This document shows, in pieces, positions 12,043 to 22,205 of a stretch of 22,205 bases of DNA. The stretch's first letter is position 1. The number at the start of each line of letters is the position of its first letter. Origin of the DNA: a virus; IMG/VR virus record IMGVR_UViG_3300042514_000287, positions 1 through 22,205 of that record. One strand, given 5' to 3'. The translations under genes and the position numbers were made by a program. The notes below the pieces were generated by a model, which searched no databases, was not told where the DNA came from, and saw nothing but the letters and a program-made list of their open reading frames with translations.

Positions 12043-13113
12043 TTAGAATCCTTGGAGAACGCGGCGCTTGTGGACAACTTCAATTTCTCTCATGCCTAAG
12101 CTTAGTCTTGCTGCTACTGGATGCCCGTTAGAGAATGTAGAATAAACACCCGTTGGTGCATAGTCTACCTCAATACGATCCAGTACGCAGGTATTAATTC
12201 TTGGAATATTGGTATTTTCTACACCCTTATCAAAGAAGGTAATATCAAATTCAGCAGGTGGAATCCATGTAAACCCAGCTGTGGTCGAATCAAGCTCGGG
12301 TGCTGCGTGATATCTGAGAGTGCGAATAATCGCTTTCATATTCTCGGACTCTTGCTCGTTTCTAGGTGCCATTAAAAATTCGAGAACAAACTGGCGCAAA
12401 TTAGTTTTAGAAAATAATACCTCAACGCGCGGATTAATTGGATAACCTAACATGCTGGATATATTACCTAAGCCATTTAAAGTGGAACTAACCAATGAAC
12501 CGAGAGAGCCTCCGCTTTCGGCTCCGCGTCTACCACCAGCACGACCACCGACAAATTCACCAGCAATACCAGCAGCACTAGATAATAGCCCGCCGGCCAT
12601 ACCAGTCAAACTGATTTCCTGGTATTCATTTGTTGTATTAAATATTACTGGATTGGGCATGAATAGTGCGATGGATTCTTTAATGCGGCGAGTATATCTC
12701 GGGATAGACAATGGTTCTCTTTGTAAAGCTCCATATCCTGTTACTGGACTGGTACCGCCTACATTAACAGCATTACCAAAACGCAATGTGTCCACCTTCG
12801 AATACTCATTCTGCATTATATTTTGACCAAATTGAGCGCCACCATACGCTGATCTGGCTGAACCGGTACGAGCAAATACAGGCACGTTTATGTTTATCAC
12901 TATATAATGACCAATATAATCATTGGCCAAATCAGATGGAAATACACGATATCTAAAATCGTATTCGGACTGACCCAGGGTATCATCATTAACATTATAA
13001 CCAAATAATAAGTCACCAGCTCTTGTAATCGAATTATCAAGAACAGAAACAATATTCTGAGGCGCCCCTGTGATACCTTCGAATGCGTTCTGTAGATCGT
13101 CTAAAATTGACAT
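12043..13113 (-). CDS. 48: baseplate tail-tube cap, gp48-like
   Basis: 356 residues from the ATG at 13113 (MSILDDLQNAFEG); T4 gp48 has 364. The frame stays open up to 13209, but the 13113 start has a clear ribosome site (AGGGA at 13121-13125, 7 bases upstream) and a late promoter just behind it, while the longer start would run into the divergent gp4 gene. The C-terminus (A-R-L-S-L-G-M-R-E-I-E-V-V-H-K-R-R-V) resembles the T4 gp48 end (F-T-L-E-I-T-M-R-E-I-I-T-L-N-R-A). The middle has a Gly/Ala-rich loop (residues about 175-215: L-S-S-A-A-G-I-A-G-E-F-V-G-G-R-A-G-G-R-R-G). gp48 caps the hub and, with gp54, starts tube polymerisation. First gene of the leftward baseplate operon. gp54 is the alternative assignment. 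Confidence 0.7.
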   Translation of the reverse strand: MSILDDLQNAFEGITGAPQNIVSVLDNSITRAGDLLFGYNVNDDTLGQSEYDFRYRVFPSDLANDYIGHYIVININVPVFARTGSARSAYGGAQFGQNIMQNEYSKVDTLRFGNAVNVGGTSPVTGYGALQREPLSIPRYTRRIKESIALFMPNPVIFNTTNEYQEISLTGMAGGLLSSAAGIAGEFVGGRAGGRRGAESGGSLGSLVSSTLNGLGNISSMLGYPINPRVEVLFSKTNLRQFVLEFLMAPRNEQESENMKAIIRTLRYHAAPELDSTTAGFTWIPPAEFDITFFDKGVENTNIPRINTCVLDRIEVDYAPTGVYSTFSNGHPVAARLSLGMREIEVVHKRRVLQGF

Positions 13114-13141: not shown

Positions 13142-13149
13142 TATTTATA
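13142..13149 (-). promoter_or_regulatory. T4-type late promoter for the leftward baseplate operon
   Basis: The minus strand reads TATAAATA, an exact match to the T4 late promoter element recognised by sigma gp55 with gp33 and the sliding clamp. The predicted transcript start falls about 20 bases before the gp48-like ATG, with its ribosome site in between. The presence of a gp33 gene in this window fits late-promoter use. The element overlaps the first base of the gp4 start codon on the other strand. Confidence 0.8.
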
Positions 13150-13589
13150 TGAAAACTTACAAGGGCAGATATAGCCCAAAGCACCCGGAAAAATATAAAG
13201 GCGACCCAACGGGAATAATATACCGTTCTTTATGGGAACGAAAGCTAATGGTATATTTGGATGAGAACAAATCGATTATTCAGTGGTCATCTGAGGAAAT
13301 AGCAATACCATATATATCACCACTGGATAATAGGTACCATAGGTATTTCCCTGACTTCTATATAAAGGCTATCGATAAGAATGGTAATATCACAGAACAA
13401 CTATTGGAAGTAAAGCCCAAGAAAGAAACAACTGAACCCAAGAAAAAGAAGCGTATTACCAAACAGTACATTACTGAGGTAACTACATGGGGCAAGAATC
13501 AAGCTAAATGGAAAGCAGCAGAAGAATACTGCTTAGACAGAGGATGGCAGTTCAAGCTTATTACTGAGACTGAATTAGGTATCAAATAG
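13149..13589 (+). CDS. 4: head completion nuclease gp4
   Basis: 146 residues from the ATG at 13149 (MKTYKGRYSPKHPEKYKGDP), close to T4 gp4 (150). The opening G-R-Y-S-P-K-H-P-E-K-Y-K-G and I-I-Y-R-S-L-W-E-R-K match the T4 family, as do Q-W-S-S-E-E-I-A-I-P-Y and the end K-W-x-A-A-x-x-Y-C-x-x-R-G-W-x-F-x-L-I-T-E. A PD-(D/E)xK nuclease core is visible: E30, P68-D69 and E87-V-K89. T4 gp4 acts in finishing filled heads before tail joining. An earlier in-frame ATG at 13083 is unlikely because it overlaps the gp48-like gene head and adds residues not found in the family. There is no ribosome site before 13149, so initiation may be leaderless or weak. Confidence 0.92.
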   Translation: MKTYKGRYSPKHPEKYKGDPTGIIYRSLWERKLMVYLDENKSIIQWSSEEIAIPYISPLDNRYHRYFPDFYIKAIDKNGNITEQLLEVKPKKETTEPKKKKRITKQYITEVTTWGKNQAKWKAAEEYCLDRGWQFKLITETELGIK

Positions 13590-13662
13590 TATTATTCATT
13601 CATACAGCACATAGCCATTATATAGTCATGTCAAGTGGCTGTCAAGTGAAATAAATACAATT
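13590..13662. other. 73-base spacer between gp4 and the next gene
   Basis: It holds the leftward sigma70-type promoter described separately and a direct repeat: TGTCAAGTG at 13629-13637 and again at 13640-13648. No terminator hairpin and no open frame of note were seen. Just before the downstream ATG is AATAAATA (13649-13656), one mismatch from the late promoter element; if used, the mRNA would be nearly leaderless. Confidence 0.6.
13617..13645 (-). promoter_or_regulatory. Consensus sigma70-type promoter pointing leftward, antisense to gp4
   Basis: Reading the minus strand, TTGACA at 13645-13640, a 17-base spacer, then TATAAT at 13622-13617: a full match to both boxes at optimal spacing. A second TTGACA lies within the spacer at 13634-13629, too close to the -10 to pair with it. 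Transcription would start near 13610 and run antisense through gp4, then in the sense direction into the gp48-like gene. No protein frame starts right behind it. The -35 region shares CACTTGACA with the gp32 promoter. Confidence 0.7.
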
Positions 13663-14166
13663 ATGGCAAAAAATTATACTTCACAAGAAATCGGCAATTG
13701 GATGACGGGCAAGGCCAAGAGTGCTTCTGGCTACCGTACCAAAATCATGTCTAATAATGAGCGCAATAGAGACGGCACCGTAATAGGTAAAATGTACTTT
13801 TTCTGGTACGATCCAAAGCACAAAGCCACCCTTCCAATGTACGATAGATTTCCCTTGGTATTTCCTATTGAGCGTTATCCAGATGGCTTTTTAGGCCTTA
13901 ATCTGCATTATCTCTCATTTGGAGAGCGTAGCGCACTATTAAATAATATGATGAAATTCCGTAATAATAACCACATGAATGCCACCACCAAGCTCCGTGT
14001 CACATATGACTTATTAAATAGCACCAGCAAAATAGCTGGTGCAATGCGCCCATGCATTAAGAGATATCTATTCACACAGGTCAGATCGTCCTTTGTTGAA
14101 GTCACAGCGGATGAATGGGATAAGGCCATGCAATTGCCTGTCGCAGCATGGGTTTCAAAAGGATAG
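13663..14166 (+). CDS. conserved virion-type protein of unknown function
   Basis: 167 residues, not securely recognised. The visible conserved-looking core is M-Y-F-F-W-Y-D-P-K-H-K-A-T-L-P-M-Y-D-R-F-P-L-V-F-P-I-E-R-Y-P-D-G-F-L-G-L-N-L-H-Y-L (residues about 44-84), a pattern I recall from marine T4-like structural neighbourhoods, followed by a basic C-terminal half with no catalytic motif. No signal peptide or membrane helix. In T4, genes 2 and 3 (DNA end protector, tail sheath terminator) neighbour gene 4, so one of these roles is possible by position, but I see no match to either. Initiation has only a weak ribosome site. It ends 6 bases before the next gene, within an apparent plus-strand late operon. 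Confidence 0.6.
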   Translation: MAKNYTSQEIGNWMTGKAKSASGYRTKIMSNNERNRDGTVIGKMYFFWYDPKHKATLPMYDRFPLVFPIERYPDGFLGLNLHYLSFGERSALLNNMMKFRNNNHMNATTKLRVTYDLLNSTSKIAGAMRPCIKRYLFTQVRSSFVEVTADEWDKAMQLPVAAWVSKG

Positions 14167-19406: not shown

Positions 19407-19633
19407 ACTGGCAGTTTATATGTGTTCGACTTCGGTAAGAAATGTAACTCTTCAGCCTCAATCTTAATCTTGGACTTCAACGCACCAGATATCATCTTAG
19501 CACCAATTTCCACTTCTAATCCAATCTCATCACAATACTCAATCACTGCTTCCATATAACTGATACTCTTGGTCTTCGCAATCGTTTCAATCTTGAACGA
19601 GAATGTTGTCACTTCATCTTTGGAGGGTGCCAT
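19403..19633 (-). CDS. 33: late-transcription co-activator gp33
   Basis: 76 residues; T4 gp33 has 112, so this is a short form lacking the T4 N-terminal extension. The core F-S-F-K-I-E-T-I-A-x-x-x-S-I-S-Y-M-E-A-V-I-E-Y-C parallels T4 F-I-I-E-K-M-V-E-E-F-G-M-S-Y-L-E-A-T-T-A-F, and I-K-I-E-A-E-E-L-H-F-L parallels I-Q-S-E-A-I-D-E-N-L-L. In T4 gp33 binds the RNA polymerase beta flap and, through its last residues, the sliding clamp, enabling late transcription with gp55. Here the C-terminus (S-N-T-Y-K-L-P-V) differs from the T4 clamp-binding tail (L-D-F-L-L). The start overlaps the HtrA stop (TAATG). Confidence 0.82.
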   Translation of the reverse strand: MAPSKDEVTTFSFKIETIAKTKSISYMEAVIEYCDEIGLEVEIGAKMISGALKSKIKIEAEELHFLPKSNTYKLPV

Positions 19634-20685
19634 TACTTGGCCTTATCCGGTTCATATTCTTTTGAGAGCTTATAGTTTGTAATCACATCGATCATTTGCT
19701 TTTCACCATTTCTTTCGATTAGGACTTTGATCTTTTCATCAGCGCCGCTCATTGTGGCCATTTCGGAAACTAAACTGTTAACATCGGTAACTACCAGTCC
19801 AGCAGGATGATTGTTTGGAGTATAGATGGCCAGTATCTTGTCATCCACTTTGATTCCAGCCTTATCAGCAGCGCCATTCGCATCAAGTGAGTTTACTATA
19901 ACAGAGTTGCCGTCATCTGTCAACCCAATACTTACATTCATTGCTCTCCATCTTACTTCACCGAACATTTGGAAATCACCAAGAACTTTCTTGAGTAGAA
20001 CGGATGGAATACAGAATCCATATGAGCCACCCTTTCCTTCAAACATCAGTTCGCTAACACAGATAACTTCACCGTATTCGTTGAAGACAGGGCCTCCTGA
20101 GTTGCCTTGGAAAATCTTAGCATCAACTTGATCCACATACTTTGGATTTGATCCTACGCGACGATTCTTGGAAGACATAATACCTTCGGAAACTGTCCAT
20201 GTGAGTCCCCAAGGATGACCAATAACAACCACCTTATCGCCTTCTAATGTTTCACGACTATCACCAATCGGAAGAATAACTGCTCCCTCATTTTGCTTAA
20301 ACTCATCCCACTTCTTTAACTTAAGAATGGCTATATCAACAATAGCATCTGTGCTAATGACCTCAGCTTCATAGCGAGTTTGGTCATTGGCAGACACAAC
20401 CGTTATTGTTCCATTGCCTTGAATAACATGATCATTTGTAACGATTAGATTCTCACCTATAATGAATCCAGTACCGATACCTCCATTTGCGGTATCGAGT
20501 TTGTTTTCTATGAGAACGGTGCCTTTTTTAACCTCACGAACAAGATGTTCCGTGCTTTTTATAGAACCAAGTCCTCCTGTATAAAGGACAATATATGCTG
20601 TAATGAACGATATTACGATTATATAAATGACTAGAAGAGAATGTCTTATAAGCGATAGAGAATTTTGGATAAAACAATTGTTCAT
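19633..20685 (-). CDS. membrane-anchored HtrA/Deg-type serine protease with PDZ domain
   Basis: 350 residues. An N-terminal hydrophobic segment (about 13-35) with Arg14 and His15 at its near end suggests an inner-membrane anchor with the bulk in the periplasm; no signal-peptidase site stands out. The trypsin-like domain (50-240) has the full triad: H86 in T-N-D-H-V-I, D117 in V-D-I-A-I-L, S196 in G-N-S-G-G-P, and an oxyanion-loop G-H-P-W-G at 156-160. A PDZ domain follows (about 245-335: G-I-K-V-D-D-K-I-L-A-I). This matches DegP/DegS/DegQ proteases, which degrade misfolded or signal-regulated envelope proteins. The start overlaps the upstream membrane gene (ATGA) with an AAAGGA ribosome site. 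Role during infection is inference: envelope remodelling, cutting a host stress regulator, or partner of the channel genes. Confidence 0.9.
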   Translation of the reverse strand: MNNCFIQNSLSLIRHSLLVIYIIVISFITAYIVLYTGGLGSIKSTEHLVREVKKGTVLIENKLDTANGGIGTGFIIGENLIVTNDHVIQGNGTITVVSANDQTRYEAEVISTDAIVDIAILKLKKWDEFKQNEGAVILPIGDSRETLEGDKVVVIGHPWGLTWTVSEGIMSSKNRRVGSNPKYVDQVDAKIFQGNSGGPVFNEYGEVICVSELMFEGKGGSYGFCIPSVLLKKVLGDFQMFGEVRWRAMNVSIGLTDDGNSVIVNSLDANGAADKAGIKVDDKILAIYTPNNHPAGLVVTDVNSLVSEMATMSGADEKIKVLIERNGEKQMIDVITNYKLSKEYEPDKAK

Positions 20686-21275
20686 GGCTGTTTTCCTTTC
20701 GGAGGTGGTGCCCCCTGTTCTACAATTTCCAGATCACCAGGTGTCTTTGGTTTGTAGGTGTCTTTTTGATTAGATAATAGTTTATTCATTATGTCATTCA
20801 TAAGAGTACCAATCTCACTCAAATCATCCGTACCATCTTGACCTTCACCGCTGCTTTCTTTAGGCGGTATACCATTTATACGAACTTCTTTACCTTCAGC
20901 CATTGCCTGTTTTGCTTTTTCAAACTGAGCAGCGCGGTTGTTCGAATACTCCACATAGAATGTCTTTGGTGCTATGCGTGGATATAAGTATTTATACGAT
21001 TCAGGTTTTTCAGTCAAAAATATTGATATATAAATGCCGCCTTTGTCTGTAGATGATGGATTAACAATCACAACAGACGCAAGAGTACCTTTGACTTCAT
21101 TTGGTTCTTCTGCGGGCCATCCTTTTACACCATCAAGTGCGAAATACACACAGTTAGCAAGAACAACAAACAACGCAATAGAAGCAAACTTCACAAGAGA
21201 GTTATTCCAATACAAGGATATTGCCATCACAGCAACAGCAAATAGTGCGAATACTAATAGAAATGTCTGTGTCAT
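20682..21275 (-). CDS. two-helix membrane protein of unknown function
   Basis: 197 residues. Two hydrophobic helices at about 3-22 and 30-47 (T-F-L-L-V-F-A-L-F-A-V-A-V-M-A; I-A-L-F-V-V-L-A-N-C-V-Y-F) are followed by a soluble part with I-Y-I-S-I-F-L-T and A-P-K-T-F-Y-V-E-Y (about 82-112), an amphipathic stretch (R-A-A-Q-F-E-K-A-K-Q-A-M-A-E-G), and a Gly/Asp and Pro/Lys-rich tail. I do not recognise a family. The start overlaps the ExbD-like stop (ATGA; ribosome site GAGAGG), and the stop overlaps the protease start by 4 bases, so it should be made together with both, and may link channel and protease. Confidence 0.7.
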   Translation of the reverse strand: MTQTFLLVFALFAVAVMAISLYWNNSLVKFASIALFVVLANCVYFALDGVKGWPAEEPNEVKGTLASVVIVNPSSTDKGGIYISIFLTEKPESYKYLYPRIAPKTFYVEYSNNRAAQFEKAKQAMAEGKEVRINGIPPKESSGEGQDGTDDLSEIGTLMNDIMNKLLSNQKDTYKPKTPGDLEIVEQGAPPPKGKQP

Positions 21276-21916
21276 TGCAATCCTCTCTCGCCTCTAACAG
21301 AAACGAAATCGCTCATAGTGCGAATGATATTCTTTTGATCATCCATAACAAAGCGTATCGCAGTCTTTTCTTGCCATACAAAATCCATCTTCATGTGAAT
21401 GGTCTTCTCGACCACAAGATTTGGATTGATCCTGATCACTTCAACAACTAAAGGAACTTCAATCGGCTCATCAATAGGTAGCCCCAAGTTACTTTGAGCA
21501 CTCAAGCATGAGTATAGATGTAAGTTCACGACATATTCACCAGGGAATGTACCGCGTAGTGTTATGTACTCTTTGTTATCTGGATCAATAACAACTTCTT
21601 CTCCGTTGATATCGTACACGCTTCTACGCTTACCCATATCATCACGCTCGAAATACATCAAGCCAGATTCTGGTATTTTGTATGAAACGACATTGTTTAA
21701 TGGATCACGCACCCACAGATCAACATCACAATCAACAGCCTCAGGCCATTCCAGTGTGATTATGTAATCGGCATTCTTTTTGATGCCTTCGTTGTTCTTT
21801 GTGATTGGTGCTATGAGAAGAGTTGTGAGTATGAACAGGACAACTGTGCCTGTCAATAAATTGATCAGTAGGTCAATATATGCGGTACGAAAATCAAACT
21901 TCTTATGGTTTATCAT
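21272..21916 (-). CDS. ExbD/TolR-like membrane protein with a DUF2135/YfaP-like periplasmic domain
   Basis: 214 residues. The N-terminus has one hydrophobic helix (about 12-38) beginning Y-I-D-L-L-I-N-L-L; D15 sits where ExbD, TolR and MotB keep the essential proton-carrying aspartate (ExbD T-P-L-I-D-V-M-L-V-L-L). The rest is a beta-type domain: L-E-W-P-x-x-V-D-C-D-V-D-L-W-V-R-D-P (55-72), then Y-I-T-L-R-G-T-F-P-G-E-Y-V-V-N-L-H-L-Y, the layout of the DUF2135/YfaP family (W-x-x-D-x-D-L-x-V-x-D-P-x-G ... G-x-Y-x-V). No OmpA-like peptidoglycan-binding domain is seen, unlike MotB or ZorB. It overlaps the channel subunit gene by 14 bases. The TM-plus-acidic-residue pattern is seen; a proton-driven role is inferred from the pair. 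Confidence 0.75.
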   Translation of the reverse strand: MINHKKFDFRTAYIDLLINLLTGTVVLFILTTLLIAPITKNNEGIKKNADYIITLEWPEAVDCDVDLWVRDPLNNVVSYKIPESGLMYFERDDMGKRRSVYDINGEEVVIDPDNKEYITLRGTFPGEYVVNLHLYSCLSAQSNLGLPIDEPIEVPLVVEVIRINPNLVVEKTIHMKMDFVWQEKTAIRFVMDDQKNIIRTMSDFVSVRGERGLQ

Positions 21917-22205
21917 CGTAGATCACCACATACAATAATGTCTTGGTGATCAGGCTTGATAGAATACCGACAGCATTAGTGTATAGCGCGATTCCCAATC
22001 CAACAGACATGTTAGCAAGTAACTTGGCCAGACTTGTCGCATCGGTAACTGAGGCCGAGGTGATGCCTGACGATAAGAGGTAAATGAAGCCAATAACGGT
22101 ACCTAACATACCGAGCGCCAACATCTGTTCGGAACCAAACCAAACAGCATCGATCAACTTTTTATTATCTCTTGTCTTGTTTGTGTATGCGATAAATCCA
22201 ATCGC
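21903..22205 (-). CDS. MotA/TolQ/ExbB-type proton channel subunit (partial, 5' end outside window)
   Basis: The frame runs off the right edge at 22205; only the C-terminal 100 residues are in the window. They hold the core of the MotA/TolQ/ExbB family: L-G-M-L-G-T-V-I-G-F-I-Y-L-L as one membrane helix, then L-A-K-L-L-A-N-M-S-V-G-L-G-I-A-L-Y-T-N-A-V-G-I as the next, ending shortly after (Y-D-D-K-P). TolQ/ExbB have L-G-L-L-G-T-V-x-G and a later A-L-x-T-T-A-x-G at matching places. This pore subunit forms a pentamer around an ExbD/TolR/MotB dimer and uses the proton gradient to rotate it. Residue W at the I-D-A-V-W-F-G segment precedes the first helix. There is no in-window start: the first in-frame alternative start (TTG at 22157) is inside the domain. 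Confidence 0.8.
   Translation of the reverse strand, partial: AIGFIAYTNKTRDNKKLIDAVWFGSEQMLALGMLGTVIGFIYLLSSGITSASVTDATSLAKLLANMSVGLGIALYTNAVGILSSLITKTLLYVVIYDDKP

Follow-up and report, generated by a model that had tools for sequence, protein, structure and literature searches.

The gp4-gp2 locus and its antisense promoter

The window analyzed here, a 22-kb IMG/VR fragment (22,205 nucleotides in full), is from a T4-like myovirus with matches to baseplate proteins, gp4, gp2, gp32 and gp59. The nearest cultured phages of its gp2 are alphaproteobacterial T4 relatives and Kyanoviridae (for example pelagiphages and Melnitz), all at less than 60% identity. Between the gp4 stop codon (13589) and the gp2 ATG (13663) lies a spacer of 73 bp that contains TTGACAGCCACTTGACATGACTATATAAT on the minus strand (13645-13617), an exact TTGACA-N17-TATAAT that points antisense towards gp4 (Table 1). 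Promoters were called throughout as consensus matches, and by this measure both sigma70 hexamers are complete (12/12) with a spacer of 17, inside the 16-18 bp range, a geometry that is kept in relatives.

An initial annotation had described a perfect sigma70 consensus, antisense to gp4 and unlikely to arise by chance, and this description was borne out: the element is the sole exact TTGACA-N15-19-TATAAT of the window, and only 0.07 such promoters are expected per window (7 of 100 dinucleotide shuffles contained one). The total number of promoter-like sites was not in excess (56, compared with 57.0 +/- 7.5 by chance), and what is unusual is the top score alone, which was reached by no other of the 56 sites.

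Table 1. Features of the gp4-gp2 locus and neighboring genes in the window
Feature	Position	Strand	Remarks
-35 box (box 1), TTGACA	13640..13645	-	17 nt from -10; invariant in 25 distinct relatives save A/C at position 4
Box 2, TTGACA, direct repeat at 11 bp	13629..13634	-	In 25/25 distinct elements; box 2 was not demanded by the search
-10 hexamer, TATAAT	13617..13622	-	Consensus match; final T in 20 of 25 distinct elements
GGCTATG at predicted start site	13610..13616	-	Averages 1.78 bits per position in relatives
gp4, head closure / TnsA-like, read antisense	13149..13589	+	phrog_218, E=4e-59; PF08722
gp2, DNA end protector, behind promoter	13663..14166	+	phrog_429, E=4e-45
gp2 T4-type late promoter, AATAAATA	13650..13657	+	4 bp behind antisense -35; 5 nt before gp2 ATG
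gp48, baseplate tail tube cap	12043..13113	-	phrog_230; first gene of minus-strand baseplate operon
gp48 late promoter, TATAAATA	13149-13142	-	Sequence read directly

On the minus strand the element reads CTTGACA-GCCA-CTTGACA-TGACTA-TATAAT-GGCTATG. It forms part of a cassette of ~60 bp in which one TTGACA box follows another at 11 bp, the -10 hexamer keeps a distance of exactly 17 nt, and a conserved GGCTATG marks the start site. Two of its features go beyond the initial annotation: the second TTGACA within the spacer (13634-13629), and the AATAAATA late promoter of gp2 behind the -35 box, which has the T4-type form of NATAAATA just upstream of a gene. Late gp2 mRNA may be leaderless. Judging from the -10 hexamer, transcription is predicted to start near 13610, and the antisense transcript would reach gp4 ~20 nt past its start; gp48 is the first gene of the minus-strand operon that a long antisense transcript would meet. 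A gene served by this promoter in the sense direction was sought and rejected, as no minus-strand ORF longer than 45 aa begins in the stretch from the predicted start to the gp48 frame. No further copy of the cassette scored above threshold in the window.

Two other parts of the window deserve mention. The gp32 promoter (CTTGACA-N17-TATTAT, 18813-18785, minus strand) has a CAGG/CCTG inverted repeat within its spacer. On the same strand, an HtrA-like protease (trypsin + PDZ) at 19633-22205 stands beside a weak MotA/TolQ/ExbB match and two unassigned proteins, possibly a membrane-stress or proton-channel module in a phage.

Conservation of the cassette at gp4-gp2 junctions

Junctions were located by homology to gp4 and gp2, in a set that partly includes loci retrieved with the twin-box motif, and were scanned only for one -35 box, 17 nt and TA at -10. 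When relatives were examined for the same promoter, a check that the initial annotation had proposed, the antisense geometry was recovered in 34 of 95 distinct junctions (an approximate fraction, some loci having first been fetched by the twin-box motif), and it recurs upstream of gp55, as described below. Both states, with and without the cassette, were seen in the two homology scans alone. Box 2 and GGnTATG accompanied the promoter in all 25 distinct junction elements. In the alignment the boxes are near invariant and the spacers variable, with 1.85 bits per position for box 1, 0.63 for N5, 1.85 for box 2, 0.39 for N6, 1.38 for -10 and 1.78 for the start region, values drawn from related phages that are not independent (weighted sequence number about 10). 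A chance promoter-like sequence in AT-rich DNA would agree with the lack of a window-wide excess of such sites, but is scarcely credible in view of the low expected number and of this strong conservation with variable spacers.

The final T of the -10 hexamer is present in the window and in 20 of the 25 elements; the other five end in A or C (TATAAA, TATAAC), which would be expected to make a sigma70 promoter weaker. One group of relatives has TTGCCA in both boxes. This joint change from A to C, the Pho-box-like placement of two boxes at 11 bp and a -10 less conserved than the start region are what might be expected of an operator for a direct-repeat-binding regulator (PhoB/OmpR type) with a secondary resemblance to a promoter. 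However, the box sequence is TTGACA rather than CTGTCAT, the 17-nt distance between -35 and -10 is kept even where box 2 lies at 12 bp, and cyanophages keep the promoter where box 2 is inverted or missing, and an operator is therefore quite unlikely. The cassette shares the 11-bp period of the Pho box, but its repeat is CTGTCAA / CTTGACA in place of CTGTCAT and the plus-strand -10 is not conserved in the junction sequences, so that it does not qualify as a Pho box; a sense reading of the element was rejected on the same ground.

Junctions without the cassette mostly have a near-zero spacer, with gp4 abutting the gp2 late promoter or start, and many of them belong to close relatives of phages that carry it. 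On a gp4+gp2 tree, cassette presence requires 11 changes, at least 7 of which are forced by well-supported branches; the 11 changes of label indicate that the cassette has often been gained, lost or exchanged. The late promoter motif NATAAATA lies 2-12 bp from the -35 box in 13 of the 13 junctions listed, always 5 nt from the ATG. Exactly this distance of NATAAATA to the gp2 ATG is found in all cassette-bearing junctions listed, and a similar one in many junctions without the cassette. A dyad around the start site with arms of at least 4 was present in 37 of 106 cases, where recombined controls gave about 21. The idea of a mini-ORF downstream of the start was also considered and rejected, since codon counts vary and many cyanophages would have ATG-TAA. 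Genes in metagenomic loci were called by a simple ORF picker. At one locus (L116:4432-4743), an ORF of 103 aa with a NUMOD3 motif (weak match, E=0.002) stands between gp4 and an otherwise intact cassette.

Recurrence beside gp55 and other genes

A twin-box promoter scan of viral contigs returned at least 119 stretches, and about two thirds of those listed are flanked on both sides by genes of the opposite strand and are mostly placed 16-50 bp beyond the stop codon of the gene read antisense. Among 42 upstream proteins tested in this motif-selected set, the gene behind the promoter was gp55, the late sigma factor, in 21 cases and gp2 in seven. Because the set had been selected by motif, gp55 was retested by gp55 homology: an antisense promoter scoring at least 10/12 was found in 124 of 203 distinct regions upstream of gp55 (most from three gp55 homology scans, some from motif-fetched loci), compared with about 10 in 2-mer shuffles, an approximate control. 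Contigs carry one to three copies of the cassette. In a 167-kb contig (G027) three copies with a common start region occur at gp4-gp2, at gp55 and at a structural gene pair, and all three strong intergenic antisense promoters of that contig are the cassette. The orientation is that of a cis-antisense element, antisense to a gene end. On the sequences compared, many T4-like phages share the cassette, which recurs at the termini of certain genes and most frequently next to the late sigma gene.

The gp55 element reads antisense into a gene referred to here as X, which encodes an Sm-like protein (PF16243, E 1e-42), and into uvsW. These targets bear on the suggestion of the initial annotation that a long transcript through gp4 gives early low-level transcription of the baseplate operon (gp48, 53, 5 and others). 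In the window the divergent gp48 does lie 0.5 kb downstream, but it has its own late promoter, and at gp55 the same-strand genes entered by the element are X and uvsW, both opposite to it, with no sense operon nearby; the suggestion is weakened by this and is now very improbable.

A trans-acting small RNA with a conserved 5' end, for which the position of the promoter would be incidental, draws on the first 15-25 nt after the start, common to copies within one genome and across cyanophages. Against it, the 3' codons of gp4 show no added synonymous constraint, no Rfam match was obtained, and no convincing minus-strand terminator was seen within gp4, so that this second proposal of the initial annotation, a small RNA promoter, receives little support and appears decidedly unlikely. 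At a separate locus (L501:2632-2901), about 230 nt that contain no ORF separate a sense twin-box promoter from the small gene downstream, and the stretch is possibly a long leader or a non-coding RNA.

Occurrence in cultured phages

An antisense promoter between X and gp55 was identified in S-RIM8, P-RSM1, ACG-2014e, Syn9, S-PM2 and P-SSM2, and Stenotrophomonas phage DLP6 has an 11/12 site at this position; none was found there in Melnitz. In Syn9, the gene read antisense beside gp55 (123236-123673; L545:1737-2174) is labelled 'methylamine utilization' and is the Sm-like PF16243, i.e., Hfq/LSm-like. In several marine cyanophages the sense promoter of gp55 overlaps the antisense promoter back to back, and cyanophages retain the promoter with box 2 inverted or absent. 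The signature TTGACA-N17-TANNNT-N5-TGTNNGGG, allowing at most one mismatch, has exactly two copies in each of Syn9, S-PM2, ACG-2014e, P-RSM1 and S-RIM8, one in P-SSM2 and none in the T4 genome. Where there are two copies, one is antisense at gp55 and the other is sense-oriented before or among runs of small hypothetical genes, in several cases with the look of an ordinary promoter that has a leader and a start codon.

Such low copy numbers, one to three cassettes per contig, would also suit an R-loop replication origin, where leading-strand synthesis would be primed by the antisense transcript, as happens at T4 oriE/oriF, and the paired boxes would serve as small iterons. In T4, the oriE primer RNA runs antisense to gene 5, a late gene of the same gp4-53-5 neighborhood in the late baseplate region. 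The oriE origin carries direct repeats of 12 nt, and transcription divergences are found close to T4 origins (PMC3016281); the window element is about 0.5 kb from the gp48/gp4 divergence. However, in G027, S-RIM8, P-RSM1 and Syn9 the cumulative GC skew keeps a steady course past the elements and does not turn there, the cyanophage signature also serves a sense promoter, two boxes are few for iterons, and an AT-rich unwinding region was not demonstrated on the downstream side. Unlike the cassette, oriE lies inside gene 5, and twin TTGACA boxes were not found in the T4 genome. An origin is thus unlikely, if worth keeping in mind.

A probable early promoter that may gate late transcription

Three points favor a true promoter: the conserved spacing, the recurrence at unrelated genes and the existence of a sibling in sense orientation. 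The cassette is very probably functional as such. At about even confidence, it can be interpreted as a selected early promoter of host-sigma70 type, inserted between co-directional genes, that would fire antisense into the preceding gene and gate the late gene behind it. That early-late gating is its main role is a slightly weaker proposition, held at a little short of even.

In cyanomyoviruses, early transcription is believed to rely on host sigma70 polymerase in unmodified form, and late transcription on NATAAATA (PMC2984593). In early infection, host polymerase would occupy the cassette and fire, producing antisense gp4 RNA; sigma70 polymerase at the cassette would block the loading of polymerase at the gp2 late promoter, and antisense firing would oppose oncoming read-through from gp4. 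With the gp2 late promoter starting 4 bp behind the -35 box, the footprints of the early and the late polymerase would overlap, and their binding at this site would be mutually exclusive. Once gp55 and its partners took over the polymerase, the cassette would fall silent and the late promoter would open. Box 2 might bind a regulator or aid polymerase loading.

What the antisense copies have in common is position and not the body of the RNA, and the lack of extra synonymous constraint at the gp4 3' end makes initiation or occupancy a likelier function than a specific RNA. Among the three roles offered by the initial annotation, the holding back of a late gene remains the best on present sequence comparisons, and gp2, whose late promoter abuts the cassette, is no less likely to be the target than gp4, the gene originally named. 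At the gp55 sites of twin-box phages a late promoter behind the element was not observed, so something beyond the gating of late promoters must be involved. The absence of the cassette from many close relatives also counts against the gating interpretation. The conserved start region is unexplained by the gating model; since it is more conserved than the -10 hexamer, another factor may be the main reader of the cassette, and its conservation suggests a further factor.

Comparison with known systems

The window element exactly matches the consensus and spacing of a sigma70 promoter, and differs from a plain one in the extra TTGACA within the spacer, the conserved GGCTATG start region and the antisense position. 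T4 middle promoters resemble the cassette in that a further recognition element, the MotA box, lies in their -35 region, whereas the -35 of the window element is perfect. The sequence of the MotA box also differs from that of the cassette box. The CfrI antisense RNA of cyanophage S-PM2, at the psbA 3' end, is likewise antisense at a gene end in a T4-like cyanophage (PMC2984593, PMC5931967); its locus is psbA/homing endonuclease, whereas the cassette, with its predicted RNA, sits at gp55, gp4-gp2 and other genes.

Significance

No description of this element was found in the literature searched. Tentatively, with the odds somewhat against it, the dispersed cassette, prone to gain and loss, may represent an early regulon of T4-like phages in which small early genes have a sense copy and gp55 and late genes have antisense copies. 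The cassette is recognizable by sequence in uncultured phages, and in cultured cyanophages the antisense promoter conserved beside gp55 offers a defined site for testing. The early, middle and late timing of T4-like phages without MotA/AsiA is poorly known; if the proposed reading is true, antisense firing beside the late sigma gene would be a built-in, previously undescribed early-to-late timing switch.
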